This document shows, one piece after another, positions 3,614-55,180 of a stretch of 64,000 bases of DNA. How positions within the stretch are numbered: the stretch's first letter is position 1; each line of letters starts with the position of its first letter. Position numbers and translations under genes: made by a program. The notes under the pieces are model-generated. The model worked only from the letters and a program-made list of their open reading frames with translations, was not told where the DNA came from and searched no databases. Origin of the DNA: an uncultured Prevotellaceae bacterium (GTDB lineage Bacteria; Bacteroidota; Bacteroidia; Bacteroidales; Bacteroidaceae); NCBI GenBank assembly GCA_900315095.1, contig OMXS01000014.1, positions 30,131 through 94,130 on the forward strand, read 5' to 3'.

Positions 3614-3718
3614 TTACAAATGGTTTGTAATGTTGTTACAAACCGCTTGTAATGGTATTACAGATGGCTTGTAATTGTGTTACAAACGGCTTGTAATAGT
3701 ATTCCAAAAATGTTGGAA
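3614..3718. repeat. Array A: five 17-bp palindromes at exactly 22-bp spacing
   Basis: Units start at 3614, 3636, 3658, 3680 and 3702, each 17 bp: TTACAAATGGTTTGTAA, TTACAAACCGCTTGTAA, TTACAGATGGCTTGTAA, TTACAAACGGCTTGTAA and TTCCAAAAATGTTGGAA. The arms are 6 bp with a 5-bp spacer. In the fifth unit both arms change together (A to C on the left, T to G on the right), so symmetry is kept. The array fills the convergent spacer between yifB and fmt. Confidence 0.9.
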
Positions 3719-3732
3719 TAGCTTGTAAAAAG

Positions 3733-3760
3733 ATTCCAGAGATTTCAAAATCTCTGGAAT
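3733..3760. terminator. Hairpin between convergent yifB and fmt
   Basis: A perfect 12-bp stem (3733-3744 with 3749-3760; ATTCCAGAGATT / AATCTCTGGAAT) with a TCAA tetraloop lies directly after array A and 27 bases from the fmt stop. It lacks a strong T run, so it is a likely but not classical bidirectional terminator. Confidence 0.6.
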
Positions 3761-3787
3761 GACTTTATATAAAGGGATTTGAAGGGT

Positions 3788-4738
3788 TTACAACTTTCTC
3801 CCGTTGAGGAAGTCCTTGGCACTCATTCTTTTCTTGCCACTCAGTTGTACGGACTTCAGTTCAAGCATTTCGCCGCCAGCTGATGCCATGAGGCGGCCTT
3901 CGTGCTGGAAGAATCTTCCGGCATGTTTGTCTGTTGCAAGGCCCGTAAGTCGCGAGTCGTATATTTTTATTGTCTGTTTGCCGTCAGTTCCAAAGGGCGT
4001 CCATGCACCAGGAATAGGGGAGAGGCCTCTGATGAAGTCGTGCACCTGCTTAGCACTTTTGTTCCAGTCGATAATGCAGTTCTCTTTGAACAGTTTGGGA
4101 GCGTTATGCAGTTCTTCACCACTTGTGGTCAGTTGCTCTTGCGGCATGCTTTCCACATGGCCGTTACCTTCAATAATCTTGTCGATGGTCTCAATGGCAA
4201 TTTCCGCTCCTTTTTCCATCAAGGCATCGTATACGGTTTCCACGTTGTCTTCAGGACCTATTGCTATTTCGTGTTGCATGATGATGCGTCCTGTGTCTAT
4301 CTCGTGGTCGAGGAAGAATGTTGTCACTCCAGTTCTTGTCTCTCCGTTTATTATTGCCCAGTTGATAGGGGCAGCACCTCTATATTGTGGCAGCAAAGCA
4401 GCATGCACGTTGAAAGTTCCGAAACGTGGCATAGCCCACACTATTTCTGGAAGCATACGGAAAGCCACCACTACTTGCAAGTCGGCATGGTATGACCTGA
4501 GTTGCTCAACGAATACCTCGTCCTTCATCTTAACGGGTTGCAGGACAGGTATTCCATGCTCTTGTGCATATACCTTCACCTGTGGCGGTTGAAGAGTGTC
4601 TTGGTGTCTACCAACGGGCTTATCTGGTTGCGTTACCACGCATACCACATTATATCCGCCATCGACAAGAGCCTTCAGAGTGCCTACAGCAAACTCTGGT
4701 GTTCCCATGAAAACAATTCTAAGGTCTTCTTTCTTCAT
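3788..4738 (-). CDS. fmt: Methionyl-tRNA formyltransferase
   Basis: 316 residues, the normal family length. It transfers a formyl group from 10-formyltetrahydrofolate to Met-tRNA(fMet) for translation initiation. The N-terminal formyltransferase domain starts with RIVFMGTPEFAVGTL; the catalytic segment reads NVHAALLPQYRGAAPINWAI near residues 108-127, holding the conserved Asn and His, and the catalytic Asp follows in DHEIDTGRI. The C-terminal OB-like domain contains GAWTPFG. It is the last gene of a leftward operon after uvrA (38-base gap) and ends toward array A. Confidence 0.97.
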   Translation of the reverse strand: MKKEDLRIVFMGTPEFAVGTLKALVDGGYNVVCVVTQPDKPVGRHQDTLQPPQVKVYAQEHGIPVLQPVKMKDEVFVEQLRSYHADLQVVVAFRMLPEIVWAMPRFGTFNVHAALLPQYRGAAPINWAIINGETRTGVTTFFLDHEIDTGRIIMQHEIAIGPEDNVETVYDALMEKGAEIAIETIDKIIEGNGHVESMPQEQLTTSGEELHNAPKLFKENCIIDWNKSAKQVHDFIRGLSPIPGAWTPFGTDGKQTIKIYDSRLTGLATDKHAGRFFQHEGRLMASAGGEMLELKSVQLSGKKRMSAKDFLNGRKL

Positions 4739-4776
4739 AATTATTATCTTTCGTTAGTGCTGCCATGCAGCATCGT

Positions 4777-7638
4777 TTAATGTTGACTGAGTTCTTTTTC
4801 AAGGAAATGTGCTGTGTAACCAACACCACTCTTTGCCACTTCCTCAGGCGTTCCGCATGCTACTAATTGTCCCCCGCGTCTTCCACCTTCAGGTCCCATA
4901 TCTATGATATGGTCAGCAAGCTTTATCACGTCAAGGTTATGCTCGATTATGATTACCGTGTTTCCCTTGCTTACAAGGCGCTGCAGCACTTCCATCAGTA
5001 TGCGTATGTCTTCGAAGTGTAGTCCTGTTGTTGGCTCGTCGAGGATGTATAAAGTCTTGCCTGTGTCCTTCTTGCTCAGTTCGGTTGCAAGTTTCACGCG
5101 CTGGCTCTCGCCGCCACTAAGTGTTGTTGACGGCTGACCAAGTTTTATGTAGCCCAATCCTACATCTTGAATTGTCTTTATCTTCCGCAGAATGTCAGGC
5201 ACATTCTCAAAGAACTCTACCGCTTGATTGATTGTCATGTCAAGGACATCGGCGATAGACTTGCCTTTATATCTCACTTCGAGAGTCTCTCGGTTGTATC
5301 GTTTGCCGTGACACACTTCACATGGCACCATGACATCGGGCAAGAAATTCATCTCGATGCTCTTGTATCCATTACCGCCACATGCCTCGCATCGTCCTCC
5401 CTTCACATTGAATGAAAACCTTCCAGGTTTATAACCACGTATTTTAGCCTCAGGAAGATTAACAAAAAGCGAGCGTATGTCGCTGAAGACGCCTGTATAT
5501 GTAGCAGGATTGCTGCGTGGAGTGCGCCCTAATGGCGTTTGGTCAACACTTACTACCTTGTCAACATTCTCAAGTCCCTCGATTGTATCATAGGACAGCG
5601 GCTTCTTAAGCGAACGGTAAAACTTCTGGCTAAGTATCGGTTGCAAGGTCTCGTTGACAAGAGTGGATTTGCCAGAGCCTGAAACTCCTGTAACAACGAT
5701 GAGTTTGCCGAGCGGGAACTCTATAGTGACATTTTTCAGGTTGTTGCCCCTTGCACCAGTTATCTTTAGTGTTTTGCCGTTGCCGACACGTCGTTCTGCA
5801 GGTACTTCAATCTTTTTCTCACCTTCAAGATACTGGGCCGTAAGTGTTGCTTTCTCGCTAAGCATACGTTCTGGAGTACCTTGGAACACAACTTCCCCTC
5901 CTTTTCGTCCTGCCTTAGGACCTATATCAATTATATAGTCGGCAGCAAGCATCATATCGCGGTCGTGCTCAACCACGATGACGGTATTGCCTAAGTCGCG
6001 CAGTTCCTTAAGAGATGTTATGAGCCTTTCATTATCTCTTTGATGCAATCCAATGCTTGGCTCGTCAAGAATATACAACACGTTGACAAGTTGAGAACCA
6101 ATTTGTGTGGCAAGACGTATGCGCTGGCTCTCTCCGCCTGACAACGAAGCCGATTGACGGTCAAGAGACAGGTAGTCAAGTCCTACTTCAAGCATGAAAC
6201 TTAGTCGCGTTTGTATCTCCTTAATGATTTCATCGGCTATTTGTTTTTGTTGGGTATCGAGATGCTTTTGTGCTTCGGTAAGCCAGTCTCTCAGTTCATT
6301 GATGTCCATTCTCGATACCTCGCTGATGTTCTTGTCCCATATCTTGTATGAAAGACTCTCGCGATTCAGTCGTTGACCATGACATTCAGGACACTCACAT
6401 GTGGCAAGAAACTGATCTGCCCATTTCTGTCCGCTTGTGCTGTCGTCGTTCTCAATCACATTTCGCAGATATTTTATCACGCCATTATATTCTACGAAAT
6501 AATCGCTTGACGTGTGAACAAGTTCCTTTTCTATCCTCACATTCTCGAGAGAACCATAAAGCACTTCGCTCATGGCTTCTTGCGGTATGTCTTTGATAGG
6601 TGTCTTGAGGTCGCACTCATACTTTTTAAGTATAGCTTCTATTTGCCAGAATATCATCTGGTTTTTGTACTTGCCAAGCGGAACTATTGCGCCATCATAT
6701 ATTGAAATCGTTTCGTCGGGTATAACCTTCTTGTTGTCTATCTGATTGATGACTCCCAAGCCTTTGCATACAGGGCATGCGCCTTCTGGAGAGTTAAATG
6801 AGAACTTGTTAGGAGCAGGGTCTCCATAACTGATACCTGAGGTGGGGCACATAAGCCTGCGGCTGAAATACTTAGCCTCTCCGCTGTCCTTGTCCATTAT
6901 CATTATGAGACCATCACCTTGCTTCATAGCAGTTGCAACGCTTTTCTTTAACCGTTCGTCGGTAATTGGTTGTCCGTCAGCATCTTTCTGTGGCTCTTTA
7001 ACAGCCATTTTATCGATTACTACCTCGATGTTATGGTTCTTGTAGCGGTCAACTTTCATGCCCCGAGTCACTTCAACAATCTCTCCGTCGACGCGCATAT
7101 ATAGATAACCTTTCTTGCGCATAGACTCAAAGAGTTCGCGATAATGTCCCTTGCGGTTTCTAACCAAAGGAGCGAGAATGTAGATGCGATGACCGGAGTA
7201 GTCGGTATTTATCATGTCAAGCACGCGCTCCTCGGTGTATCTCACCATCTTCTCGCCTGTCATATAACTATATGCTGTTCCGGCACGAGCGTAAAGCAAT
7301 CTCAAGAAGTCGTAAACTTCAGTTGTTGTTCCCACAGTCGAGCGAGGGTTCTTGTTGGTTGTTTTCTGCTCGATGCTGATTACAGGGCTTAGGCCAGTTA
7401 TCTTGTCAACATCAGGGCGCTCCATGCCACCAAGAAAGTTGCGTGCATATGCTGAGAAAGTCTCTATATATCGGCGTTGTCCCTCTGCGAATATAGTGTC
7501 GAATGCCAATGACGATTTGCCAGAACCACTCAGTCCTGTAATTACAGTAAGGCTGTCTCTTGGTATTTCGACGTTTATATTCTTTAAATTATGAACGCGA
7601 GCGCCCCAGACACTTATCTTTTCAGATTCTTTATTCAT
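4777..7638 (-). CDS. uvrA: Excinuclease ABC subunit A
   Basis: 953 residues, full length for UvrA, the damage-sensing ATPase of nucleotide excision repair. Two ABC modules are present: Walker [13 protein letters not shown] near residue 35 and [15 protein letters not shown] near residue 640, each paired with an LSGGESQR signature. Zinc-binding modules are visible: an incomplete-looking first one with ACPVCKGLG near residue 285, and a complete one with [11 protein letters not shown] and [10 protein letters not shown] near residue 745. The ATG is 8 bases downstream of the preceding secreted-protein gene, so the two are almost surely co-transcribed. A UvrA paralogue may exist elsewhere; this one has the canonical architecture. 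Confidence 0.97.
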
Positions 7639-7646
7639 ATGAACAA

Positions 7647-8375
7647 TTAGTTTTCGGTGGTGTTACTGCCACCGTTAGTATAATATCCACGCAGCAAGTT
7701 AACATCGCGTCGGATACTATACTTTCTGCCGTCGGAACCTTTTGCCCTTACCGACACATAGTATACGCCATCTTTAACAGGCTTCCCATTGAACGTTCCG
7801 TCCCATCCGCCTTCAGGATCATTCCATTCGTAAAGTTTCTGTCCCCATCGGTTGAATATGATGGCGTGGAATTCAACAAGGCTTTTAAACTTCTTCGCCT
7901 TGTAAATCTCGTTATCTCCATCGCCATTGGGCGAGAAGGCATTTGGCATTTCGAGCATGCTCTCGCTGACGATCACCTTTATTGGCGTTTTTTCTTCTTT
8001 CCAATACTCCTCCGTGTATTCATGCCTGTCGCTTCCATTGGTGAACACCGCATAACACACTATGCTGTGTGTGCCAGCCTCGGTAAAGGTGTAGTCGGTG
8101 TCTTCTTCATACCTTATAAGATATGGTTCGGTAGAACCCTCTTTGGTGAAGCGCCATTCGTAGTGTGCGTTATATGCCCCTTGGTTTTGTGGATTGGCTC
8201 GAAAATGAACTTCAAAGGGTGCATCACCAGAGAAAGAAGTACTGTCCACCTCTTCTCCATCCTTGTTAATGATGGAGGCAGTTGGCTCTATCGTTGGAAT
8301 GTCACTTTGTGAGAAAACACTTATGTGGATTAACAACAGAAGACCTAAAACGGCTATAAAACGTTGAGTTTTCAT
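7647..8375 (-). CDS. Secreted protein with type B T9SS (gliding-motility-type) C-terminal domain
   Basis: 242 residues starting MKTQRFIAVLGLLLLIHISV, a signal peptide ending near VFSQ. The in-frame TTG further upstream (8399) overlaps a promoter box and is rejected. Residues about 25-135 form a PKD-like beta-sandwich (APFEVHFRANPQN, then HYEWRF and THSIVCYAVFTNG). The C-terminal 90 residues carry the CHU_C/type B sorting signature: MPNAFSPNGDGDNEIYKAKK, FNRWGQKLYEWNDPEGGWDG and VKDGVYYVSVRAKG. Such domains direct export through the type IX secretion system. It is first in the operon with uvrA and fmt, an odd pairing of a surface protein with DNA repair and translation genes. Confidence 0.88.
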   Translation of the reverse strand: MKTQRFIAVLGLLLLIHISVFSQSDIPTIEPTASIINKDGEEVDSTSFSGDAPFEVHFRANPQNQGAYNAHYEWRFTKEGSTEPYLIRYEEDTDYTFTEAGTHSIVCYAVFTNGSDRHEYTEEYWKEEKTPIKVIVSESMLEMPNAFSPNGDGDNEIYKAKKFKSLVEFHAIIFNRWGQKLYEWNDPEGGWDGTFNGKPVKDGVYYVSVRAKGSDGRKYSIRRDVNLLRGYYTNGGSNTTEN

Positions 8376-8396
8376 TTTCTTTTCTTTTAATAGATG

Positions 8397-8404
8397 CAAA
8401 ATTA
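8397..8404 (-). promoter_or_regulatory. -7 box for the T9SS protein-uvrA-fmt operon
   Basis: On the minus strand this reads TAATTTTG. A TTGA lies about 19 bases upstream as a partial -33 element. It sits 21 bases before the ATG at 8375. Confidence 0.5.
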
Positions 8405-8437
8405 CAAAAAAACAGCGGTTAAATCAACTTTATTGCT

Positions 8438-8445
8438 TATTTTTG
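8438..8445 (+). promoter_or_regulatory. -7 box for the LysM protein operon
   Basis: TATTTTTG lies 37 bases before the ATG at 8483, in the divergent spacer. No good TTTG is found at the -33 position, so this is a weaker match. Confidence 0.4.
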
Positions 8446-8482
8446 CAAAAAATTTAGGGAAGTAAATAAGATTAAACAGATT

Positions 8483-9835
8483 ATGAGACATTTTTTTAGA
8501 TATTCGTTGGTGTTGGCTTTCTTCTTCGTATGTGCTTCTGCAAATGCGCAGATGAACAAATGGAGGGAGATGCATAAGGTGGCAAAAGGTGAGACCATAT
8601 ACGGCATATCGCGTGAATATGGCATCACAGAAGAGCAGTTGCGGGCTGCAAACCCCGACATGAATCAGCCTGGATACAAACTAAAGAAGGGCGATTTCAT
8701 CTTCATTCCGTATGCTTCAGAGGCTGAGGCCATCGCTGCTGCCGATAAGGTAGTGACTCGTGGTGACGAGAAGTCGGATGTTCGCAAGCGTGCCATTCGT
8801 ATGGGAGTGATGCTTCCTTTACATAATGTAGATGGTGACGGCAAGCGCATGGTGGAGTATTACCGTGGTTTGCTTTTGGCATGCGACCAGATGAAACGTG
8901 AAGGTATATCTGTTGATGTCTATGCTTGGAATGTTGACATAAATGCCGACATACGCATGACTTTGCTTAACAAGGGCGCCGATAAGTGTGACATTATCTT
9001 TGGTCCGTTATATACTAAGCAAGTAAAGGCGCTTGCTGACTTCGCTTCCATTTATGGAATTAAGATTGTAATACCGTTCTCTATCGAGAGCGACGCTGTG
9101 AACAGCAATCCTAACGTGTTCCAGGTGTATCAGAATCCAGTTTTCTTCAATCAGGAAGTTGTTGCTCAGTTTGTCAGCCGTTTCGGCTCTGCTCATCCTG
9201 TATTCATTGATTGTAATGATGAAAAGAGCACAAAGGGCAATTTCACAACTCAGTTGCGTAAGGAACTCGAGACACGCAACGTTGCTTACAGCATTACTAA
9301 CGTGAACTCTGAATGGCAGAACTTTGCACGCTCGTTCCTCGCAAACAAACAGAATGTAGTTGTGCTGAACTCTGAGAAATCGCCCTGTCTTAACCGCGTA
9401 ATATCACGCCTTGACTCTCTGCGCGCAGCAAATCCGCAGTTGCAGTTGACTCTCTTCGGTTATACCGAGTGGCTGATGTATGCTAAGTATAATGTAGAGA
9501 AGTATTGCATGTTCGACACATACATTCCATCTCATTTCTATTATAACTCACTCTCATCTGCAACAACATCGTTGGAGAGAAGTTACAAGCAATGGTTCCG
9601 TACCGAGATGCAGGACTATCTCCCACGTTTTGCCATAACAGGTTATGACCATGGCACCTATTTCCTTCGCGGACTCCACCGAGAAGGGGCAAAGTTTGCT
9701 GGCGCAGAGTCTGACAAGACCGCCTTGCAGACGCGCCTTCATTTTAAGAAAGTAGGCAAGGGAGGTTATCAGAACACAGGATTCCTTTTTGTTCACTACA
9801 ACAAGGATCATTCCATCTCAACCATTAATTTCTAA
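8483..9835 (+). CDS. LysM domain protein with periplasmic type-1 binding fold
   Basis: 450 residues. The signal peptide ends near ANAQ (residues 1-23). One LysM motif spans about residues 29-76 (HKVAKGETIYGISREYGI, then LRAANPDM and KLKKGDFIFIP), which binds peptidoglycan glycan chains. Residues about 98-450 resemble a periplasmic-binding-protein type I fold: IRMGVMLPLHN opens it, CDIIFGPLYTKQVKALADFA and IVIPFSIESDA follow, with a GYTEWL segment late. The LysM should tether it to the wall; the ligand is unknown. The next gene, a beta-barrel, begins 6 bases after its stop, suggesting a joint envelope function. Similar LysM/ABC-substrate-like proteins are common in Bacteroidales. Confidence 0.85.
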   Translation: MRHFFRYSLVLAFFFVCASANAQMNKWREMHKVAKGETIYGISREYGITEEQLRAANPDMNQPGYKLKKGDFIFIPYASEAEAIAAADKVVTRGDEKSDVRKRAIRMGVMLPLHNVDGDGKRMVEYYRGLLLACDQMKREGISVDVYAWNVDINADIRMTLLNKGADKCDIIFGPLYTKQVKALADFASIYGIKIVIPFSIESDAVNSNPNVFQVYQNPVFFNQEVVAQFVSRFGSAHPVFIDCNDEKSTKGNFTTQLRKELETRNVAYSITNVNSEWQNFARSFLANKQNVVVLNSEKSPCLNRVISRLDSLRAANPQLQLTLFGYTEWLMYAKYNVEKYCMFDTYIPSHFYYNSLSSATTSLERSYKQWFRTEMQDYLPRFAITGYDHGTYFLRGLHREGAKFAGAESDKTALQTRLHFKKVGKGGYQNTGFLFVHYNKDHSISTINF

Positions 9836-9841
9836 TTCTCT

Positions 9842-10594
9842 ATGAAAGTAAGGCAGAGAATTGTGTTCCTCATGCTTTGTCTGGGCATGGCGATGACATC
9901 TCACGCACAAGTGGGAGAGCATCGTAATGACCTTAGCGTGGGTTTCAATGCAGGTTATGTTCTCAGTAATGTCTCGTTCCAGCCAAAGGTGGGACAGACG
10001 ATGCATGGAGGAATAACAGGTGGTTTCACTTTCAAGTATGTCTGTGAGAAGTACTTCAAGACAATATGTGCCATTCAGGCTGAAGTGAATTATGCAAGCA
10101 TTGGATGGAAAGAGGAAATTCTTAATATTCATGACGCGCCTGTAATAAATACAGTTACAGGGCTGCCAGAGGAATACCAGCGTACGATAAACTACATTCA
10201 GGTTCCTGTCTTTGCACACCTTGGATGGGGTAAGGAGCAGAAAGGTCTGCAGTTCTTCTTTCAGGCAGGTCCGCAGTTTGGTTATTTCCTAAGTGAAAGC
10301 ACCAAGACAAACTTCAAAGTGGAGGAGCGGAACGCCGAGGAACGTGTAAATAATAATGTTGCACAAGACACTATGGTTGTGGAGCATAAGTTTGACTATG
10401 GTATCGCAGCGGGTGTCGGAATGGAGTACAGTCATCCCAAGATAGGAAGAATGATGCTTGAGGCACGCTACTATTATGGTTTAGGCAATATCTACGGCGA
10501 CTCCAAGCGTGACTACTTTGGAAGGAGTAATTTCGGCAACATCGTTGTGAAGTTCACCTACCTTTTCGACCTGATAAGAACCAAGCGTAAATAA
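9842..10594 (+). CDS. PorT-family outer-membrane beta-barrel protein
   Basis: 250 residues with a signal peptide ending near TSHAQ. The body shows alternating hydrophobic and aromatic strands typical of a small beta-barrel: LSVGFNAGYVLSNVSF, TGGFTFKYVCEKYF, INYIQVPVFAHLGW, FFFQAGPQFGYF, FDYGIAAGVGMEYSH and MLEARYYYGLGNI. The segment from YIQVPV to GPQFGYF is the hallmark of PorT-like (OMP_b-brl_2) proteins. It is coupled to the LysM gene (6-base gap) and followed 21 bases later by the POT transporter. Whether it is the true T9SS PorT or a paralogue cannot be told from sequence alone. Confidence 0.82.
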   Translation: MKVRQRIVFLMLCLGMAMTSHAQVGEHRNDLSVGFNAGYVLSNVSFQPKVGQTMHGGITGGFTFKYVCEKYFKTICAIQAEVNYASIGWKEEILNIHDAPVINTVTGLPEEYQRTINYIQVPVFAHLGWGKEQKGLQFFFQAGPQFGYFLSESTKTNFKVEERNAEERVNNNVAQDTMVVEHKFDYGIAAGVGMEYSHPKIGRMMLEARYYYGLGNIYGDSKRDYFGRSNFGNIVVKFTYLFDLIRTKRK

Positions 10595-10615
10595 ATCAAT
10601 CAAAATAACAGTACT

Positions 10616-12892: not shown

Positions 12893-13070
12893 CACTTATG
12901 TCTTTTTGCTATGCCACTTGTGCTTCCTGAGGTTGTCACTTGTGCTTCCTGAGGTTGTCACTTGTGCCTTTTGACCACCTCACTTATATACATCTGACAG
13001 TCTCACTTATATACATTTGACCACCTCACTTGTGCCTCCTGACGGCATCACTTGTGGCATGTGACTTGCT
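12893..13070. repeat. Array B: eight tandem units of 22-23 bp beginning CACTT
   Basis: Units begin at 12893, 12915, 12937, 12959, 12981, 13004, 13027 and 13049. Six have a 22-base step and two (12981, 13004) have 23. Units 2 and 3 are identical (CACTTGTGCTTCCTGAGGTT plus GT). Units 5 and 6 share CACTTATATACAT. The array fills most of the convergent spacer between the small secreted protein gene and the YitT gene. Confidence 0.9.
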
Positions 13071-13087
13071 CAGATGCATGGAAGCGC

Positions 13088-22522: not shown

Positions 22523-22525
22523 TCT

Positions 22526-22657
22526 CACTTGTGTCCTTTGGCATTCTCAGAGATGCCCTTTTGCATTGTCAAAGATGTCCTTTCGCATTGCCAAAAGGCA
22601 TCTCTTGGAACATGAAAGATATACCTTTGAGAATTCGGCGATATGCTTTTCGCTAGT
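22526..22657. repeat. Array C: about six 22-bp units
   Basis: Units at 22526, 22548, 22570, 22592, 22614 and 22636, all 22 bases apart. The first three read CACTTGTGTCCTTTGGCATT, CAGAGATGCCCTTTTGCATT and CAAAGATGTCCTTTCGCATT plus two bases each. The later ones are more diverged, and some look partly inverted (AAGGCATCTC against GAGATGCC). The array fills the convergent spacer after DUF3078. Confidence 0.8.
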
Positions 22658-22667
22658 GAAAACAAAA

Positions 22668-22697
22668 ACACCTTTCAGGCAGATGCCCGAAAGGTGT
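22668..22697. terminator. Bidirectional terminator between DUF3078 and DUF1573 genes
   Basis: ACACCTTTC (22668-22676) pairs with GAAAGGTGT (22689-22697) over a 12-nt loop that itself contains GGC-AGAT-GCC. It is flanked by A-rich sequence on the left and TTGTTTT on the right. Confidence 0.75.
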
Positions 22698-22723
22698 CGT
22701 TGTTTTATATCTAACGACGTTGC

Positions 22724-35358: not shown

Positions 35359-35467
35359 CAAGAGGCACAAGTGAGCACCTCACTTGTATACATCTGACCA
35401 CCTCACTTATATACATCTGAGCATGTCAGAAGACACAAGTGAGAAGCCAAGGAAGCACAAGTGAGAA
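35359..35467. repeat. Array D: five units of 21-23 bp in both orientations
   Basis: Units start at 35359, 35381, 35404, 35427 and 35448. Two units read CACTTGTATACATCTGACCA and CACTTATATACATCTGAGCA (plus three bases each). The other three carry the reverse complement ACAAGTGAG near their 3' ends, so neighbouring units can pair (ACAAGTGAG-CAC-CTCACTTGT at 35368-35388). It shares CACTTATATACATCTGA with array B. The array lies between co-directional yhcH-like and glgB genes. Confidence 0.85.
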
Positions 35468-35507
35468 CATAAGACAATAACAGTAACAAAATCAAAAACA
35501 AATCAAT

Positions 35508-43324: not shown

Positions 43325-43400
43325 GCGGAAATAGCTCAGTTGGTAGAGCACAACCTTGCCAAGGTTGGGGTCGCGGGTCCGAGTCCCGTTTTCCGCTCCA
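43325..43400 (+). tRNA. tRNA-Gly(GCC)
   Basis: 76 nt with acceptor GCGGAAA/TTTCCGC, anticodon loop TTGCCAA, T arm GGGTCCGAGTCCC, and an encoded CCA end. Identical to the copy at 43637. Confidence 0.95.
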
Positions 43401-43427
43401 CATTCTGAACAAGAGTTACCAGTAATT

Positions 43428-43509
43428 GCCCAGGTGGCGGAATTGGTAGACGCGCACGTTTCAGGTGCGTGTGCCGCAAGGCGTGCAGGTTCGAGTCCTG
43501 TTCTGGGCA
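43428..43509 (+). tRNA. tRNA-Leu(CAG)
   Basis: 82 nt, class II with a long variable arm (GCC-GCAA-GGC). Acceptor GCCCAGG pairs with TCTGGGC. The anticodon stem CACGT/GCGTG frames the loop TTCAGGT, anticodon CAG. CCA is not encoded. Confidence 0.93.
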
Positions 43510-43536
43510 CTGTTTTGTTTAGAATGTTTACATGTT

Positions 43537-43620
43537 GGAGAGGTGGCGGAATTGGTAGACGCGCTACTTTGAGGGGGTAGTGTCAATTGCGACGTGGGAG
43601 TTCGAGTCTCCTCCTCTTCA
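43537..43620 (+). tRNA. tRNA-Leu(GAG)
   Basis: 84 nt, class II with variable arm GTC-AATTGC-GAC. Acceptor GGAGAGG pairs with CCTCTTC (one G-T). The anticodon stem CTACT/GGTAG frames TTGAGGG, anticodon GAG. CCA is not encoded. Confidence 0.93.
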
Positions 43621-43636
43621 CTCATTTATTCAGGTT

Positions 43637-43712
43637 GCGGAAATAGCTCAGTTGGTAGAGCACAACCTTGCCAAGGTTGGGGTCGCGGGTCCGAGTCCCG
43701 TTTTCCGCTCCA
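43637..43712 (+). tRNA. tRNA-Gly(GCC), second copy
   Basis: 76 nt, identical to 43325-43400 over its whole length including the encoded CCA, but with unrelated flanks. A T-rich tract follows. Confidence 0.95.
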
Positions 43713-46769: not shown

Positions 46770-46777
46770 TAAATTTG
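46770..46777 (+). promoter_or_regulatory. -7 box for rsmA
   Basis: TAAATTTG lies 21 bases before the ATG at 46799, with TTG 20 bases upstream (46747-46749). Confidence 0.55.
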
Positions 46778-46798
46778 CACCATTAAAAACATAAGTGA

Positions 46799-47599: not shown

Positions 47600-47612
47600 C
47601 ATTATTAGTTTT

Positions 47613-48080
47613 ATGACGAACAAAGAAGAAACATACGAAATGCTTCTATGTCAGGTGGAAAGCCTGATAGAAGGAGAAGATAACGAGACAGGAGTGCTTG
47701 CTAATGTTAGTGCGGCTCTTGCGAGCGCTATGCCGCAATTCTTTTGGACAGGCTTTTATCTTGTTAAAGGTGAAGAACTGTGTTTAGGTCCATTCCAAGG
47801 AACGGTGGCTTGTTACCGTATTCCTTATAACAAGGGCGTTTGCGGAACGGCATGGGCTAAACGAGAGACGTTGGTTGTGCCTGATGTGGATGCTTTTCCA
47901 GGACATATTGCATGTAGCAGTCTTTCCCGTTCAGAGATAGTATTGCCTCTTTATAAAGCTGATGGTAATGTGTGGGGTGTACTAGACATAGACAGCAAGG
48001 AGTTGTCTGCATTTGATGAAACTGACAAGAAATACCTTGAAAAAGTGACATCATTGTTGTCAAAACACCTTGCAAAGTGA
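47613..48080 (+). CDS. Free methionine-R-sulfoxide reductase (GAF domain)
   Basis: 155 residues, a single GAF domain of the fRMsr group. The three cysteines of the catalytic cycle are present: VACYRIPYNKGVCGTAW holds two and HIACSSLSRSEIVLP the third. FFWTGFYLVKGEELCLGPFQ and VWGVLDIDSKELSAFDETD are typical blocks. It reduces free Met-R-sulfoxide. Start ATG 47613 is chosen because earlier codons overlap rsmA. Confidence 0.93.
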   Translation: MTNKEETYEMLLCQVESLIEGEDNETGVLANVSAALASAMPQFFWTGFYLVKGEELCLGPFQGTVACYRIPYNKGVCGTAWAKRETLVVPDVDAFPGHIACSSLSRSEIVLPLYKADGNVWGVLDIDSKELSAFDETDKKYLEKVTSLLSKHLAK

Positions 48081-48120
48081 TTTTTTTTTAATTTTTGTTG
48101 CGAATATGAAATTAATATTA

Positions 48121-48128
48121 TAATTTTG
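48121..48128 (+). promoter_or_regulatory. -7 box for frr
   Basis: TAATTTTG, with GTTG at 48097-48100 about 20 bases upstream and the ATG at 48156. Confidence 0.5.
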
Positions 48129-48155
48129 TCATTTGGAAACCTAATATTACGAAAT

Positions 48156-48716
48156 ATGATTGACGTAAAAGCAACCTTAAAGGAAAGTGAAGAGAGAATG
48201 GAAATGGCTGCAATGTTCCTTGACGACCAACTCGCCAAGATACGTGCAGGACGTGCAAACGTCGCTATTCTTTCAGGAATAAAAGTCAGCAGTTATGGTG
48301 AGATGGTGCCACTCAATCAGGTGGCAAGCGTCACCGTGCCAGATGCTCGTACTATTGCTATCAAACCATGGGACCGGAAGGCTATTCGCGACATCGAGAA
48401 GGCCATAATGGCAAGCGATGTAGGCATTACGCCTGAGAACAACGGCGAGGTTATCCGTCTCGCTATTCCGCAACCAACCGAGGAACGCCGTAAGGAACTT
48501 GTTAAGCAATGCAATAAGATAGGCGAAAAGACCAAGGTTGAAGTGCGCAATGTCAGGAGCGAAATAAAGGACAAACTGAAGAAAGCCATCAAAGACGGAC
48601 TTAGTGAAGACAACGAGAAGGATGCAGAGGCCGAACTTCAGAAACTTCATGACAAGTTTATCAAGAAGATTGACGACTTGTTGGCAGCAAAGACAAAGGA
48701 GATAATGACGGTATAG
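48156..48716 (+). CDS. frr: Ribosome recycling factor
   Basis: 186 residues, normal length. Helical domain I and beta domain II carry QLAKIRAGRANVAILSGIKV, SYGEMVPLNQVASVTVPDAR, and TEERRKELVKQCNKIGEKTK. It splits post-termination ribosomes with EF-G. The next gene, rsgA, starts after 30 bases. Confidence 0.98.
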   Translation: MIDVKATLKESEERMEMAAMFLDDQLAKIRAGRANVAILSGIKVSSYGEMVPLNQVASVTVPDARTIAIKPWDRKAIRDIEKAIMASDVGITPENNGEVIRLAIPQPTEERRKELVKQCNKIGEKTKVEVRNVRSEIKDKLKKAIKDGLSEDNEKDAEAELQKLHDKFIKKIDDLLAAKTKEIMTV

Positions 48717-48746
48717 CATGCCGCTGTTCTCTAAAACAAATTGCTG

Positions 48747-49679
48747 ATGAACGGACTTGTAATCAAAAACACGGGTTCTTGGTATTCGGTGCTTACTGAT
48801 GAAGGCGATGTTGTCGAGTCGAAGATAAAAGGCAACTTTCGTCTTAAGGGTATTAGAAGCACAAATCCTGTTGCTGTTGGTGACAGAGTCAACATAACAG
48901 TCAACAAAGAAGGCACGGCTTTCATAACAGAGATTCTTGACAGGCGTAATTACATAATACGCAAGTCGCCGAATCTTAGCAAGCAAAGTCATATCATCGC
49001 AGCCAACGTTGACCAGGTGTTGTTGATTGTAACGGTAAACTATCCGGAAACAAGCACCACGTTCATTGACCGTTTCCTTGCTTCTGCAGAGGCCTACAGA
49101 ATACCTGTGGTATTGGTGTTCAACAAGACCGACCTTCTCAATGACGACGAGAGACGTTATCAGGAGATGATGGTCAACCTCTATGAAACCATTGGTTATA
49201 AATGCATGCAAATCTCTGCCACGCTTCCAGATACGTTATCGTTGATGGAACCGCTGCTCAAAGATAAAATAACTCTTTTTAGTGGCAATAGCGGAGTGGG
49301 GAAGAGCACATTGCTAAACCAGCTTATTCCGGGAGTTAATCTAAAGACTGCAGAAATCAGCGACGCTCATAACACGGGAATGCACACGACAACATTCAGC
49401 GAGATGTTGCGTCTGCCATTCGGAGGATGGGCAATAGACACTCCAGGAATCAAGGGCTTCGGAACGTTTGATATGGAACCCGAAGAGATATGCGGTTACT
49501 TTAAGGAGATATTCCGATTCTCTAAAGATTGCAAGTTCGCCAACTGTACTCATACACACGAACCAAATTGCGCTGTCAGGAAAGCTGTTGAGGAACATTA
49601 TATTAGCGAAAGCCGCTATAACAGTTACCTCAGCATGCTTGAAGACAAGGAAGAAGGAAAATACAGAGAGGCATTTTAA
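48747..49679 (+). CDS. rsgA: Small ribosomal subunit biogenesis GTPase
   Basis: 310 residues, YjeQ family. An OB fold is at the N-terminus ([20 protein letters not shown]). The GTPase is circularly permuted: G4 VFNKTDLL precedes G1 [16 protein letters not shown] and G3 DTPGIKGFG. The C-terminal zinc domain has [14 protein letters not shown]. It acts in late 30S maturation. ATG 48747 is preferred to a TTG two codons upstream. Operon with frr. Confidence 0.97.
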
Positions 49680-49721
49680 TAAGGAACATATTATTCATTT
49701 TAATTTATAAACTTAAAACTT

Positions 49722-51077
49722 ATGGCTTACACAACAACTACAACGACGAGCTATGGCTCGAGAGTTAAAAACTCATGTGGCGGTATCTTTGGAGGTATTG
49801 CCCTGTTTTTGGCAGGTACTGCGCTCCTTTGGTGGAACGAAGGCAATGCTGTTGCCAACGCGAAACTTCTGGAAGAAGTAAGTGAGACTGCTGTCGACAT
49901 GGAAAACATCAACAAGATTAACCCTGAGTTCGATGGACAACTGGTTCATGCTACAGGAGATGCGAAGACTGATGACATGCTTAAGGATCCTACATTCGGA
50001 TTCGAGGTAAACGCAATTAACCTCCAGCGTAGCGTGCAGTACTATCAATGGGTAGAGCACCAAAAGCAGGAGAAACGCGATAAACTGGGTGGAAGTGAAG
50101 AGACTATCACCACCTACACCTATGACAAGCAATGGGTATCAAGTCCTGTAAACTCTTCAAACTTCGCTGACCCTCAGTATGCAAACATTTTCAATGGTGT
50201 TCTTGCTTCCATCGAGAACAACGCGTTGTATGCAGAGAATGTAACCTTCGGCGCATATAAGTTGCCAGAGTTTATTATCCACTCTATTGGTGGTTCAGAG
50301 GCAGCTCCTATCAGCATTACTGATGACCAGCTCCGTCAACTCGACGACCAGGTTGCACGTACCGTATCAAGTTTCGGCGGTCGCTATAATGGTGTTGCAG
50401 CAGCTCAGCCACAGCCACAGGCTCAAGCACAACCACAACCGCAGGCTCAGGCTGCTCAGAACGACTCTACAGCCAATGACTCTATAAAGGAATTTGTTCC
50501 TGTTGAGACAAACAACAAGTACAAGGCACGCTATATCCACCAGGGTGATGGTGAGATTTACATTGGTGCATCTCCTTCTGCTCCTCAGGTGGGTGATGTT
50601 CGTGTAGCGTTCACCGTTGTTAAGCCTCACAAGATTTCTCTTATCTCTAAGGTAAAGGGCGACACCTTCCAGAAGTATGTTGGAAAGAACAAGAAGGAGT
50701 TCACACGTGTTGAGAGCGGTGACGTTTCTAAGGAAGAGATGTTTGCACATCAGGAGAGCGAGAACAACATGCTGAAGTGGGGTCTTCGCATCCTCGGTTT
50801 CATCATGGTATTCCTCGGATTGAAGGGCGTCTTCGGCTTCCTTGTAACAATTGCAAAGGTTGTTCCGTTTATTGCTAACATCCTCAACTTCGGTGTTAAC
50901 CTCATCTGCGGTATCTTCGCGTTCGTATGGAGCTTGCTGATTATTGCAATCGCATGGATATTCTATCGTCCGCTTATCGGTATCCCGTTGCTGCTGATTA
51001 TCATCGGAACCATTGTCTTCTTCGCCGTTAAGGGAAAGAAGAAGGGCGCACAGGTTCCACCAGCACCAGGAGTATAA
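49722..51077 (+). CDS. TMEM43 family membrane protein
   Basis: 451 residues. TM1 lies at about 20-38 (GGIFGGIALFLAGTALLWWN, with the family WWNE motif), then a large extracytoplasmic domain (about 40-345), then three or four C-terminal TM helices (ILGFIMVFLGLKGVFGFLVT, VNLICGIFAFVWSLLIIAIA, IGIPLLLIIIGTIVFFAVKG). It is homologous to eukaryotic TMEM43/LUMA in layout. A Gln/Pro/Ala-rich insertion at about 226-246 (AAQPQPQAQAQPQPQAQAAQ) interrupts the big domain. Function in bacteria is unknown. It lies 42 bases after rsgA and ends at a strong terminator. Confidence 0.85.
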   Translation: MAYTTTTTTSYGSRVKNSCGGIFGGIALFLAGTALLWWNEGNAVANAKLLEEVSETAVDMENINKINPEFDGQLVHATGDAKTDDMLKDPTFGFEVNAINLQRSVQYYQWVEHQKQEKRDKLGGSEETITTYTYDKQWVSSPVNSSNFADPQYANIFNGVLASIENNALYAENVTFGAYKLPEFIIHSIGGSEAAPISITDDQLRQLDDQVARTVSSFGGRYNGVAAAQPQPQAQAQPQPQAQAAQNDSTANDSIKEFVPVETNNKYKARYIHQGDGEIYIGASPSAPQVGDVRVAFTVVKPHKISLISKVKGDTFQKYVGKNKKEFTRVESGDVSKEEMFAHQESENNMLKWGLRILGFIMVFLGLKGVFGFLVTIAKVVPFIANILNFGVNLICGIFAFVWSLLIIAIAWIFYRPLIGIPLLLIIIGTIVFFAVKGKKKGAQVPPAPGV

Positions 51078-51099
51078 ATCATTTATTTAATTATTCTTA

Positions 51100-51133
51100 G
51101 AGGGTTGGGCATCATGTTCCAACCCTCTTTTTT
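51100..51133 (+). terminator. Terminator after the TMEM43-like gene
   Basis: GAGGGTTGG (51100-51108) pairs with CCAACCCTC (51119-51127) over a 10-nt loop, followed by six Ts. Confidence 0.9.
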
Positions 51134-51189
51134 CGTTGATTGTTTCGGCTGTTTAATTGAATTTATTTCGTGTTTCATCTTTATCCTTT

Positions 51190-51197
51190 TATATTTG
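51190..51197 (+). promoter_or_regulatory. -7 box for the beta-helix lipoprotein gene
   Basis: TATATTTG, with TTCG (51167-51170) 19 bases upstream as an imperfect -33 element. The leader to the ATG at 51248 is about 45 bases. Confidence 0.5.
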
Positions 51198-51247
51198 CAG
51201 ACATCAAAACGATAGGATTATTTTTTAACTTCTAAAACGTGTCAATT

Positions 51248-53086
51248 ATGAAAAGGATAACTTATTTGCTTATTTCATTCTTTGTGCTTGCATCGTGCAC
51301 AGAGGATAATGTTATTACTCCCGACTATTCGGACATTGTTATTCCTGGTGGAGGAACCATTCCTGGCGGTGGTGGATCATCGTCGGCAACAAATGTCTAT
51401 GGCAATCTGGCAACATTCGCCATTGCCGTGAACACCGAGGCGCTGTCTGAAACTGAGACAATAACCACCGATGAGACTGATGAATATTACGGCGAGTATT
51501 GGGAGAACGATTTCTCTGAAAAAACAACCGTAACACTAAACTATTCTGAGGGCAATGTTACAATAGACGGCACGGCTGAAGGAGTTGACGTTAGCGTCGA
51601 TGGCGCCCATGCCGTTATTAATGCCACAGCAAAAGGTCTTGTGTTAAAGGTGTGTGGCACCACAACAGACGGCTCGTTGAAGATTTACAGCGACAAGAAG
51701 TTCAAACTCGTCTTGTCTGATGCTAATATCACCAACCCCACTGGACCAGCCATCAACATACAAAACGGTAATGCCTTTGTGGTTGCAGAAGATGGCACGA
51801 CCAATACCCTTGCTGACGGAGCCAACTATGTGGTTGCCGATGGCGAGGATGCCAAGGGAGCATTCTTCAGCGAAGATAAGTTACGCTTCTCTGGCAGCGG
51901 CGAACTCTTTGTGTTCGGATATTACAAAAACGGTATCTGCTCAGACGATTACATCTATATCCGCCCTAACACAAACATCTATGTGAAGTCGGTGGCAGGA
52001 CATGGAATAAAGACCAACGACGGCGTGATTATTCGTGGCGGCGTGCTCAATGTGGAAGTGTCTGCACAGGCGTCGAAGGCCATTAACACTGAGGGCTATT
52101 TCTTCAAGGACGGCGGTCGCACAACACTCATTTCGTCGGGCAATGCCGAATATGATTCCGAAGAAAATGATGTTACAGGCGCTGCAGGACTTAAGGTTGA
52201 CAGCATCTTCACAATGGCTGGTGGCGAACTCAATGCCAAGAGCACCGGCAAGGGTGGCAAGGCTATCAGTGTTGACCAGACATTCACCATCACAGACGGC
52301 ACCATTAATGTAATCACCGAAGGCAGCACATACACCTACAACTCATCGCTCGACTCCAAGGCGAAGGGCATTAAGGCAGACGGCGCAATGAGCATTGCCG
52401 GCGGCAACATCATGGTTCGTGCCCTCGGCGGTGAAGGTTGCGAGGGAATAGAGTCGAAGTCAACGATGACCATCTCTGGCGGCGAAATCGCCACATATAC
52501 TTATGATGACGGCATTAACTCCAAGGGCGACCTCACCATCTCTGGCGGTCAGGTGTATTGTCTGGCAATAGGCAACGACGGCATCGACTCCAACGGGAAC
52601 TTCTACATAACAGGTGGAGTGGTCATTGGAATAGGCAGCAGCGGTGCCGAAGAGGGACTTGATGTCTATGAAGGCAAAACTATGAGCATCACCGGCGGGA
52701 CCGTTATCGGTTTGGGAGGTGGCAACGAGGCTGCCTCGGGTTCACAACAGAAAGCAGTGGCGAAGGGCATCACAGCATCGTCGGGTAGTTATCTCGCCAT
52801 CACCGATGGCACCAACTGCATTTTTGCACTTGCATTGCCGCGGTCGCTTAACAACGAGACACTGGTCGTGAGCAGTCCTTCGTTCAAGAGCAGCATCACA
52901 TATTCCATATATACAGCAACGTCGGCAACAGGAACATCGTTCTATGGCTTCGTGCCTGCGGCAACACTTAGTGGCACCTCGAACAATCCTCTTGGCACGT
53001 TCACCACAGGCACCACCATCTCTGGCGGAATGGGAGGCGGCATGGGCGGTGGAATGGGTGGCCCCGGTGGCGGAGGATTCCACTAA
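51248..53086 (+). CDS. Carbohydrate-binding beta-helix lipoprotein (Cthe_2159-like)
   Basis: 612 residues. The lipoprotein signal ends in FFVLASC (Cys 17). A Gly/Ser linker (GGGTIPGGGGSSS) follows. From about 60 to 555 the sequence builds a right-handed beta-helix of short turns: VTIDGTAEGVDVSVDGAHAV, KGIKADGAMSIAGGNIMVRA, STMTISGGEIATYTYDDGIN, NGNFYITGGVVIGIGSSGAE. This matches the Cthe_2159 carbohydrate-binding family, which binds cellulose-like polymers and calcium. The C-terminus is a Gly/Met tail (GGMGGGMGGGMGGPGGGGFH). It stands upstream of a LytS-LytTR pair, 74 bases before it and likely on one transcript. Confidence 0.87.
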   Translation: MKRITYLLISFFVLASCTEDNVITPDYSDIVIPGGGTIPGGGGSSSATNVYGNLATFAIAVNTEALSETETITTDETDEYYGEYWENDFSEKTTVTLNYSEGNVTIDGTAEGVDVSVDGAHAVINATAKGLVLKVCGTTTDGSLKIYSDKKFKLVLSDANITNPTGPAINIQNGNAFVVAEDGTTNTLADGANYVVADGEDAKGAFFSEDKLRFSGSGELFVFGYYKNGICSDDYIYIRPNTNIYVKSVAGHGIKTNDGVIIRGGVLNVEVSAQASKAINTEGYFFKDGGRTTLISSGNAEYDSEENDVTGAAGLKVDSIFTMAGGELNAKSTGKGGKAISVDQTFTITDGTINVITEGSTYTYNSSLDSKAKGIKADGAMSIAGGNIMVRALGGEGCEGIESKSTMTISGGEIATYTYDDGINSKGDLTISGGQVYCLAIGNDGIDSNGNFYITGGVVIGIGSSGAEEGLDVYEGKTMSITGGTVIGLGGGNEAASGSQQKAVAKGITASSGSYLAITDGTNCIFALALPRSLNNETLVVSSPSFKSSITYSIYTATSATGTSFYGFVPAATLSGTSNNPLGTFTTGTTISGGMGGGMGGGMGGPGGGGFH

Positions 53087-53160
53087 TCGCCGAGTTCCTG
53101 TTGGCAATAATACCGACTGACGCAATTTTTAATGCAAGTCCACGTTATAATTAATACACT

Positions 53161-54267
53161 ATGAGACTTTTGAAACATAACACACATAGGGAAAACCTGA
53201 TTTATCTCGCTATATGGGTGGTGCTCTTGGCAGCACCGCTCATAAGCCTTGTTGCCACCTCCATTATTGATGAAAAGGTGGAGTTCGGGTGGAACAAGAT
53301 ATTGCATATCTGGGCGTTATATCTCGTTTATCTCGTCGTGTTTTTGTTTCACAACGCTCTCTTGGCACCTCTCTTTGTCTATAAGAACAAGAAGAAAATT
53401 TATTTCATCGGTGTTGCATGCCTCCTGGCATTGTTCGTGGCATACCAGTGCACTCACGGTCCGGGCCCCGATAGGGGCGAACCAAAGCCTATGATGCACG
53501 AGATGCCACCGCCCCAAAGACCTCACGACCCCATGCCACCGCCACCCAATGCCGGACTTGAACATGTATTCTCGTTCGTGCTGGTGTGTATGATGCTCGG
53601 CATTAACGTCGGTATCAAGCAGATGTTCAAGAACGAGGAAGACCGCAAAGCGATGGAAGAACTCGAGAAAGAGAACCTTCGCCAGCGCCTCGACTATCTG
53701 AAGTACCAGATAAACCCGCACTTCTTCATGAACACGCTGAACAATATCCATGCGCTTGTTGACATCGACCCCGAGAAGTCGAAAGAGGCGATAGTGCTGC
53801 TGTCCAAGATTATGCGCTATGTTCTTTACGATGGTGAGCGCAACGTTATTCCCATCCGCCACGAAGTGGACTTCATCACAAGTTACATCTCGCTGATGCG
53901 ACTGCGCTATTCATCTGATGTCAGCGTCGCTTTCAATGTTCAAGAAGGTCTCCCCGACGGCGAAATACCACCCCTGTTGCTGTTGACCTTTGTCGAGAAT
54001 GCCTTCAAGCATGGCATCAGTTATCGTCAGTCGTCGTTCGTCGATATCGACATCCGCGAGAACGAGGGGTGTTTTGTGTTTACATGCCGTAACAGCAAAC
54101 ACCCGAAACCGCAAAACAATATTGCCGAAGAGGGTGGTGTGGGACTGAAAAATGTCAGACAACGACTGGCGTTGCTTTATGGCAACGACTACGACCTCGA
54201 TATTGACGACCATGACAATGAGTATTCCATAGTATTAAAACTAAACAAACTGTTTGTTGAAAAATGA
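53161..54267 (+). CDS. LytS-type sensor histidine kinase
   Basis: 368 residues. Three TM helices are at about 13-100, then a Pro/Met/His-rich loop (about 98-130: HGPGPDRGEPKPMMHEMPPP, then RPHDPMPPPP), then a fourth helix (about 134-150). A coiled-coil linker follows (about 153-180). The His_kinase domain (PF06580) has QINPHFFMNTLNNIHALVD, with the phospho-acceptor His, and the ATPase lid VGLKNVRQRLALLYG with LLLLTFVENAFKHGI as the N box. It phosphorylates the LytTR regulator encoded next, which overlaps it by 4 bases (ATGA). Confidence 0.93.
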   Translation: MRLLKHNTHRENLIYLAIWVVLLAAPLISLVATSIIDEKVEFGWNKILHIWALYLVYLVVFLFHNALLAPLFVYKNKKKIYFIGVACLLALFVAYQCTHGPGPDRGEPKPMMHEMPPPQRPHDPMPPPPNAGLEHVFSFVLVCMMLGINVGIKQMFKNEEDRKAMEELEKENLRQRLDYLKYQINPHFFMNTLNNIHALVDIDPEKSKEAIVLLSKIMRYVLYDGERNVIPIRHEVDFITSYISLMRLRYSSDVSVAFNVQEGLPDGEIPPLLLLTFVENAFKHGISYRQSSFVDIDIRENEGCFVFTCRNSKHPKPQNNIAEEGGVGLKNVRQRLALLYGNDYDLDIDDHDNEYSIVLKLNKLFVEK

Positions 54268-54986
54268 TAAAGTGTATAGCAATAGACGATGAACCTTTCG
54301 CCCTGCAGAAACTTGGCGCATATATAAAAAAGGTACCCTATCTGGAACTTGTGGCTGAATGTCAGAGTACATTCGAGGCTTCCGAGATACTGAAGAACGA
54401 GAGCATAGACGCCATTTTCTGCGACATCCAGATGCCTGATGTTAACGGCATGGAGTTTGTCAAGTCACTACCGGTAGCCCCGATAGTTGTTTTCGTAACG
54501 GCATACAGCGACTATGCCGTCGAAGGTTATTCCGTCGATGCCGTTGCCTATTTGCTGAAACCCTACAACGAGGATGATTTCGCGAAGGCGGCGGATAAAG
54601 TGCGCCAGAGATACGAAATGCTGAACACCGCCTCTCTGTCATCTGTTGATGCCGACGATGCCATATTCCTGAAGACCGAATACCGCATCGTGCGCCTCCA
54701 ACTGTCAGACATACAGTATGTCGAGGGCATGAGCGAATATCTCAAGATTTATGCCGAACATCGCGAGAAACCCATTGTTGTGCTTCTGTCGATGAAGAAA
54801 CTCGAGGAGCGTCTGCCTTCTAATATGTTCATGCGCATACACCGGAGTTACATCATCAATCTCCGCGCCATTCTCGAAGTGAACAAGAACCGAGTCATAA
54901 TGCCCGGTGAGGCGTACATTCCCATAGGGGAAAACTACAGGGAGCAGTTCAACGAATACATCTCCTCTAAGTTTCTGGGCAAGTAA
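54264..54986 (+). CDS. LytTR-family response regulator
   Basis: 240 residues. The receiver (1-118) has DDEP, phospho-acceptor Asp in DAIFCDIQMPDVNGMEFV, and the KPYNEDDF lysine. The LytTR DNA-binding domain (about 135-238) has IFLKTEYRIVRLQLSDIQYV, EGMSEYLKIYAEHREK and MRIHRSYIINLRAI. Likely target: the lipoprotein gene upstream or its own operon; I found no convincing pair of LytTR 9-bp sites in the 51134-51247 spacer. Confidence 0.95.
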   Translation: MIKCIAIDDEPFALQKLGAYIKKVPYLELVAECQSTFEASEILKNESIDAIFCDIQMPDVNGMEFVKSLPVAPIVVFVTAYSDYAVEGYSVDAVAYLLKPYNEDDFAKAADKVRQRYEMLNTASLSSVDADDAIFLKTEYRIVRLQLSDIQYVEGMSEYLKIYAEHREKPIVVLLSMKKLEERLPSNMFMRIHRSYIINLRAILEVNKNRVIMPGEAYIPIGENYREQFNEYISSKFLGK

Positions 54987-55027
54987 ACACATCCTCTTAG
55001 AAACCCGAAAACATCTACTTGCCGCCC

Positions 55028-55180
55028 CACTTGTAACTTCTTGGATACCAAGGAGATACAAGTGGGGTAACAAAGTTAATAACTTTGTTCAACAATCCTA
55101 TTAACTTTGTTCCCTCACTTGATACTCCTGACACCCTCACTTGATACTTCTTGCATCATCAGGAGATATATCTACTATCC
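55028..55180. repeat. Array E: seven units of 21-23 bp with a strong hairpin
   Basis: Units start with CA at 55028, 55049, 55071, 55093, 55116, 55138 and 55160. The first two pair fully: CCCCACTTGTA (55025-55035) with TACAAGTGGGG (55057-55067), and inner CTTCTTGG with CCAAGGAG (one mismatch). The third unit contains AACAAAGTTA-A-TAACTTTGTT. The fifth and sixth read CACTTGATACTCCTGACACC and CACTTGATACTTCTTGCATC. Convergent spacer between the response regulator and the aldose epimerase genes. Confidence 0.85.

Follow-up and report, generated by a model that had tools for sequence, protein, structure and literature searches.

Intergenic arrays with a 22-bp step in Bacteroidales: a possible class of elements held together by geometry rather than by sequence

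Repeat families are usually recognised by the letters that their copies share, so that a class keeping nothing except its spacing and its symmetry would escape both sequence search and repeat libraries. Does such a class exist? The question is raised by a stretch of 64,000 nucleotides from an uncultured Prevotellaceae bacterium (assembly GCA_900315095.1, contig OMXS01000014.1, positions 30,131 to 94,130; hereafter the window), in which five intergenic spacers carry tandem arrays with a unit of about 22 bp. The same period recurs in spacers across a sample made up mostly of Bacteroidales, in arrays whose text, that is, the letters of their units, differs from case to case. We regard it as possible, if short of probable, that these arrays form an order-wide class of elements set by geometry and not by sequence, whose text is rewritten between species and even within one orthologous spacer, and which would be read by a fast-diversifying putative DNA-binding system, either a selfish mobiliser or a nucleoid protein.

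A shared period and its reach

An initial annotation of this DNA had reported five dispersed arrays of roughly 22 bases, and all five are present in the sequence and exceed chance (Table 1). They were scored in a lag scan of 180 spacers, taken from the window and from 20 stretches of its genome, each of 20 kb, with dinucleotide shuffles as the null; at the threshold, a score of 14 at lags 21–23, between none and one of the 180 shuffled spacers passed in each of 10 rounds. Scanning was confined to spacers with a minimum length of 60 or 80 bp and a maximum of 1200 bp, and genes were called by a non-standard, hexamer-based caller made for the analysis. In all five arrays the units are contiguous, with nothing in between, and a clustered regularly interspaced short palindromic repeat (CRISPR) array was ruled out, the repeats having no unique spacers between them.

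The arrays had also been taken for a single CA-phased family, and this stands in part. The CA phase fits text A (CTCACTTGT...), which is found at 12.9 and 35.3 kb and partly at 22.5 and 55.1 kb; the array at 3.6 kb carries another text, C (TTACAAACGGCTTGTAA), and that at 55.1 kb consists partly of the palindrome AACAAAGTTAWTAACTTTGTT, text B. Both differ from text A, and the window therefore holds several texts on one period, in agreement with the further observation of the annotation that spacing is kept while unit text drifts. Genome-wide (3.24 Mb), text A has at least 44 matches at about 40 places (40 of 80 candidates were scored), text C has 15 matches at about nine places, its own site included, and text B has 75 unit sites at two or fewer mismatches against one for a reversed control pattern. 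Inverted flanks like GATACAAGTGGGG / CCCTCACTTGATAC are common to many B arrays and measure about 13 bp on many of the 27 text B elements. Among genomes of the genus, text A occurs in three of 61 and the composite of A and B in five of 299, the bacterium's own genome being counted in both; two of the composite matches are short, and scoring for the composite covered the best two candidates of each genome. Judged by fmt, the closest relative with a name is Prevotella koreensis, at 83% protein identity in a comparison from which the organism's own record is possibly absent. The annotation named no described family with exactly these properties; in a search of the window against Rfam 15 at gathering score, only four tRNAs and no array family were found.

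Around fmt loci and in stretches of same-genus genomes, the period is the same and the letters differ. This set comprises 80 fmt loci from named records, mostly of Bacteroidales, together with the same-genus stretches, and takes in a few records labelled merely Bacteroidia or Prolixibacteraceae; two loci (L101 and L113), which hold none of the 64 arrays counted below, enter the tallies by spacer type and are dropped from the period histogram. In the 1065 spacers of that histogram, lags 20, 21, 22, 23 and 24 are represented by 1, 6, 48, 6 and 3 arrays, with seven further arrays at 12–19 and seven at 25–32. The 277 spacers from other orders, which come from 14 genomes labelled as of the same class, yielded three arrays at lag 21, one at 24 and none at 22, so that arrays at lag 20–24 occupy 64/1065 spacers in the first set against 4/277 in the second (p=0.001). 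Tandem Repeats Finder (TRF), used as a second and independent detector with its matches restricted to intergenic ones, gave 84 arrays at period 22, 18 at 21, seven at 23 and three at 20 in 2.85 Mb, and a single period-22 array in 0.72 Mb of other orders. The controls farther afield are small samples: four stretches from the phylum outside the class had two arrays, neither at 21–23, and 50 kb of Escherichia coli had none; over seven loci outside the order (the four phylum stretches, E. coli and two fmt loci) TRF found five arrays, none at 22 and three at 21.

Symmetric units, changing texts and a possible binding lattice

The units are also mostly two-fold symmetric. In a column-permutation test with significance at p<0.05, symmetry was found in 43 of the 64 arrays at lag 20–24 and in 9/13 at the double period of 41–46; for other periods the counts were 2/77 at 6–11, 1/7 at 12–19 and 1/11 at 25–40 (together 4/95 up to 40), and for arrays of other orders 0/11. 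When each text cluster is represented by one array, 24/37 remain symmetric. Conservation of symmetric partner columns is correlated at 0.36 against 0.04 (standard deviation 0.05) after permutation (n=39), and the paired letters show no compensation, pairs being slightly rarer than under independence (1544 of 2239 cells, expectation 1566.5; z=−2.1, 41 arrays). Columns that are conserved jointly without compensating for each other are better fitted by symmetric protein-binding half-sites than by RNA hairpins, and hairpins within units were rejected as the selected structure on this ground. Most text B units combine a consensus half, AACAAAGTTA, with a variant one, and the half-sites of a unit differ by 1.85 mismatches against 1.41 by chance (15 arrays), as is expected of two recognition half-sites and not of selection for a hairpin.

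The account towards which we lean, tentatively, is that the arrays are the interiors of small dispersing intergenic elements similar to miniature inverted-repeat transposable elements (MITEs), carrying a lattice of dimer-binding sites every ~22 bp and widespread in Bacteroidales. What unites the families would be a lattice with one site, in most cases two-fold symmetric, per two helical turns, and each unit would bind one dimer of a putative DNA-binding protein, all of them on one face of the helix. Such elements would spread from spacer to spacer while slippage altered their unit number, and the text could vary with the turnover of specificities or families, the geometry of one dimer per two turns staying in place. 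The putative protein, dimeric or in some larger oligomer, may drive this spread or may profit from it. Two ideas of the initial annotation, a replicating repeat that tolerates changes of text and a protein bound at fixed helical phase, are combined here, each as a possibility. Should the lattice prove real throughout Bacteroidales, arrays would be carried by many gut bacteria, would act as or betray a putative DNA-binding system, and would be ready bait for finding the protein.

Another account, which we judge unlikely, does without a binder: the arrays would be neutral minisatellites of no function, in which a looped strand of ~22 nt folds on itself and hairpin-stabilised slippage preferentially duplicates symmetric 22-mers in Bacteroidales. 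This would explain the independence of text, the limitation of symmetry to arrays of ~22 and 44 bp and the lack of compensation. It fits less well with the conservation of symmetric columns together beyond permutation, with texts that share the period and have no significant symmetry, and with the recurrence of text B and similar flanks at many loci, as local slippage does not disperse; the near absence of such arrays in other orders would, moreover, require an enzymology specific to the order.

Texts differ between arrays and, in places, between close relatives. With indels allowed, the 64 arrays fall into 32 text clusters, the cut being one that ~0.1% of column-permuted comparisons exceed; without indels there are 35 to 39. 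The genome G028, 87% identical in DNA to the window over most of the compared segment, retains the arrays at 3.6 and 22.5 kb, with scores of 40 and 24, and in weaker form that at 35.3 kb, with a score of 15 at lag 23. Its B site orthologous to that at 55.1 kb contains four units, against two in the window; at 39.5 kb G028 has an array that is absent from the window; and in the 12.9 kb spacer, where the flanking genes are the same, an unrelated 22-bp array (AGTCCGAACGCCACGTACT...) takes the place of the window's text A. Another genome, G044, has a spacer of 27 bp at 12.9 kb and, at 35.3 kb, a different text at lag 22 with a score of just 12, possibly a second orthologous spacer with unrelated text. 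A comparison of orthologous spacers via fmt in named genomes was abandoned, the gene beyond fmt not being conserved.

These differences bear on whether the arrays serve the host as sites of chromosome architecture, with a nucleoid-associated or condensin-loading protein seated on the lattice. We consider that improbable. A fixed phase of two turns would suit such a role, as would the presence of arrays in all three types of spacer and their number, about 96 per genome when the 19 in 640 kb of the bacterium's own genome are scaled up. However, both text and array presence vary between species at 87% nucleotide identity, a single genome holds several texts, and G024, of the same genus, has one array at lag 20–24 in 200 kb, so that the arrays seem dispensable.

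As a separate observation, the palindrome GTGATTAGACCCTAATCAC recurs at a spacing of 44 bp at L211:15699-15795 in G028, where it alternates with text A, and at L140:15932-16011 in G024; it may represent the lattice at a doubled step.

Gene ends, transcripts and objections to the lattice

The arrays had been described as lying mostly at convergent gene ends. Four of the five in the window do lie tail to tail, and four of its seven convergent spacers of at least 80 bp carry an array, but the enrichment was not upheld outside it. In another 32 stretches of this genome, arrays at lag 20–24 are found in 2/32 of the convergent, 12/149 of the codirectional and 5/48 of the divergent spacers; over eight pooled sets outside the window the counts are 13/154, 37/678 and 14/249, respectively. 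Convergent spacers thus compare with the rest as 13/154 with 51/927 (odds ratio 1.58, p=0.19). These spacers were sampled without regard to arrays in the sense that positions lay at even intervals or near fmt; for the own genome and G028, the contig numbers of the stretches were known beforehand from array matches. An earlier pooled sample had given an odds ratio of 2.7 (p=0.0014), which is discounted because it included loci chosen for their arrays and a segment syntenic with the window, both of which bias it. Enrichment at convergent ends, weak and non-significant in the spacers sampled without regard to arrays, was rejected.

Position and orientation relative to transcription may be less neutral. 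Of the 37 arrays in codirectional spacers, 28 occupy the half of the spacer that adjoins the upstream stop codon, a bias that may perhaps reflect just exclusion from promoters, and text A is sense-oriented in 9/11 codirectional spacers of the own genome, the window included (p=0.065). Both biases, and the long quasi-palindromes at 3.6, 22.5 and 55.1 kb, could be accommodated if the arrays were 3′-end structures acting at the RNA level, either terminators or tandem hairpins stabilising the mRNA; we nevertheless find this improbable. Compensatory pairing within units was not found, divergent spacers hold arrays as often as codirectional ones, and hairpins have no need of a 22-bp step. A terminator scan of four array spacers (3.6, 12.9, 22.5 and 55.1 kb) found strong hairpins in two, always outside the array, and no terminator-like hairpin in the 12.9 and 55.1 kb spacers; no intrinsic terminator (stable hairpin and T run) was found inside an array in these four, the one hit within an array being a weak hairpin of six pairs in array 3. 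The suggestion that arrays block read-through is weakened by the location or absence of terminators and by the array content of divergent spacers, while the stop-side and orientation biases leave it some room.

Several points weigh against a lattice of dimer-binding sites, beginning with the 21 of 64 arrays, most text A arrays among them, that have no significant symmetry and for which a dimer is therefore not indicated. A general rule of one conserved 11-bp half and one variable half failed (3/54 arrays at p<0.05, combined p=0.63). Text B flanks pair with their own partner at 8.33 of 16 positions against 7.69 when shuffled (p=0.017, 27 elements), a hint of base-paired structure at the level of the whole element, and the orientation bias of text A, which a symmetric role in DNA does not predict, would, if it holds, favour an RNA-level or directional role. 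When the cut is relaxed to 1%, chaining gathers 41 of the 64 arrays in a single cluster and leaves 19 clusters in all, so that the texts may be distantly related. In the one syntenic segment compared, a 22-bp array was never seen opposite a clean empty site, and neither a binding protein nor a transposase was found. Finally, hairpin-stabilised slippage could yield symmetry with no binding protein at all.

Known repeat systems and other features of the region

No Bacteroidales-wide 22-bp class was found described in the literature searched, prior description elsewhere being possible; the closest case is BrickBuilt, whose host, Porphyromonas gingivalis, belongs to the same order. As described, BrickBuilt is a 23-nt minisatellite inside a MITE, present at 19 dispersed loci that are always intergenic; its units are tandem, spacer-less and imperfect, with conserved and non-conserved positions, and vary in number between strains (PMC4596501). 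The description also gives it flanks ending in inverted repeats, a leader and tail of up to ~300 nt and bidirectional promoter activity, and treats it as a single element with a limited host range (PMC4596501). So far as these traits go, the present arrays are alike in their contiguous imperfect tandem units (here of period 21–23, mode 22), their dispersed loci in the intergenic DNA scanned and their varying unit number, and the inverted flanks of many text B elements may correspond to its inverted-repeat ends; they are unlike BrickBuilt in having tens of texts across the order, most of them two-fold symmetric, and a text that differs at one orthologous site. Likened in this way, by description and not by sequence, BrickBuilt looks like one described case of the 22-bp class, and, if the lattice holds, it would take its place within an order-wide class. 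A step of two turns is known elsewhere: plasmid iterons and the 22-bp transposase end sites of Tn7 and Mu are direct repeats about two turns apart that place protein on one face of the helix. Those belong to one origin or to element ends and have one text, whereas the 22-bp arrays are dispersed over the chromosome in many texts. A search for Mu-transpos_C (PF09299) returned zero matches anywhere, the 14 controls included, so that it says nothing for or against a Mu/Tn7-type transposase.

Repetitive extragenic palindromic (REP) sequences and bacterial interspersed mosaic elements (BIMEs) are, as described, short palindromic repeats in many copies, at times tandem, with GTAG or CGTC tags and REP-associated tyrosine transposases (RAYTs) (PMC3733652). 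The arrays resemble them as short palindromic repeats in many copies, here tandem, and differ from what is described there in their strict 22-bp tandem lattice. That elements of this type were mobilised by a RAYT is, in our view, very unlikely. Symmetric short intergenic repeats are a hallmark of REPs, and the own genome has a Y1_Tnp (RAYT-like) gene, the only one found in it (179 aa, L134:1360-1899, at about 61.5 kb of G000:C26); but in five of the 12 genomes searched (G024, G370, G372, G373 and G375), each with at least one 20–24 bp array, Y1_Tnp was not found, four of these five being represented by contigs of named records of uncertain completeness. A RAYT is weakened as a candidate by its presence in seven of the 12 genomes and not in every array-bearing one. 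The own gene is, moreover, preceded at L134:1245-1350 by an inverted repeat of another kind, which ends in GTAG (GGGCGCACACGGTGGTACGCCCCTAC / GTAGGGGCGTACCACCGTGTGCGCCC) and does not resemble the 22-bp arrays. In the 64 arrays with 30 bp of flank, GTAG on either strand is seen in 14 and CGTC in 33, counts that are without a chance control.

Two other insertions set G028 apart from the window. On its contig C4, at the place orthologous to window positions 51199-51201, there is a clean insertion of ~110 bp with an inverted repeat (GTAGGAGGTGACGTG...CACGTCACCTCCTAC) and GTAG-like ends; absent from the window, where the empty site is visible, it looks like a GTAG-tagged REP pair or a MITE. A second, of ~150 bp, is orthologous to window 53087-53160 on the same contig and likewise absent from the window; it contains repeats of the 8-base type, its ends are inverted (AACTTTCGCAA / TTGCGAAACTTC), its borders carry a direct duplication of 11 bases, AATTAATACAC, and it is likely a transposed small element.

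Table 1. Arrays, flanks and terminator-like hairpins in the window (lag-scan entries give interval, best lag and score)
Feature	Position	Strand	Lag scan	Description
Array 1, text C	3611..3721	.	3611-3721, lag 22, score 49	units TTACAAACGGCTTGTAATGGTG, period 22, ~4-5 units, two-fold symmetric (TTACAA...TTGTAA); convergent spacer between Mg-chelatase ChlI-domain gene and formyltransferase (fmt-like) gene
Terminator-like hairpin	3733..3760	both		adjoins array 1, beyond the periodic stretch; near-identical hairpin text in G028
Array 2, text A	12912..13085	.	12912-12985, lag 22, score 34	CACTTGTGCTTCCTGAGGTTGT / CTCACTTATATACATCTGACCAC, period 22-23; convergent spacer before YitT-family gene
Array 3	22523..22610	.	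22523-22595, lag 22, score 29	TCTCACTTGTGTCCTTTGGCATT / GTCAAAGATGTCCTTTCGCATT, period 22; convergent spacer; kept in G028
Terminator-like hairpin, 14 pairs	22667..22698	.		in the spacer of array 3, outside the array
Array 4, text A in both orientations	35367..35470	.	35367-35428, lag 23, score 25	codirectional spacer
Left flank of B-type element	55025..55067	.		inverted repeat CCCCACTTGTAACTTCTTGG / CCAAGGAGATACAAGTGGGG
Array 5, text B	55069..55111	.	55069-55173, lag 22, score 23	two palindromic units AACAAAGTTAWTAACTTTGTT, exactly 22 bp apart
Right flank of B-type element	55112..55165	.		CCTCACTTGATACTCCTGACA / CCTCACTTGATACTTCTTGCA, units of text A in inverted orientation to the left flank

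The four tRNA genes of the window are clustered in a 610-bp spacer, at 43325-43709. A separate matter is the second mode of the period histogram, which is made up of arrays with 7- and 8-bp units and occurs both in Bacteroidales and in the other orders. Long intergenic arrays of 7 or 8 bases are frequent in the own genome and its relatives, examples being L021:10554-10735, L021:13018-13117, L035:6389-6458 and L036:7748-7865.

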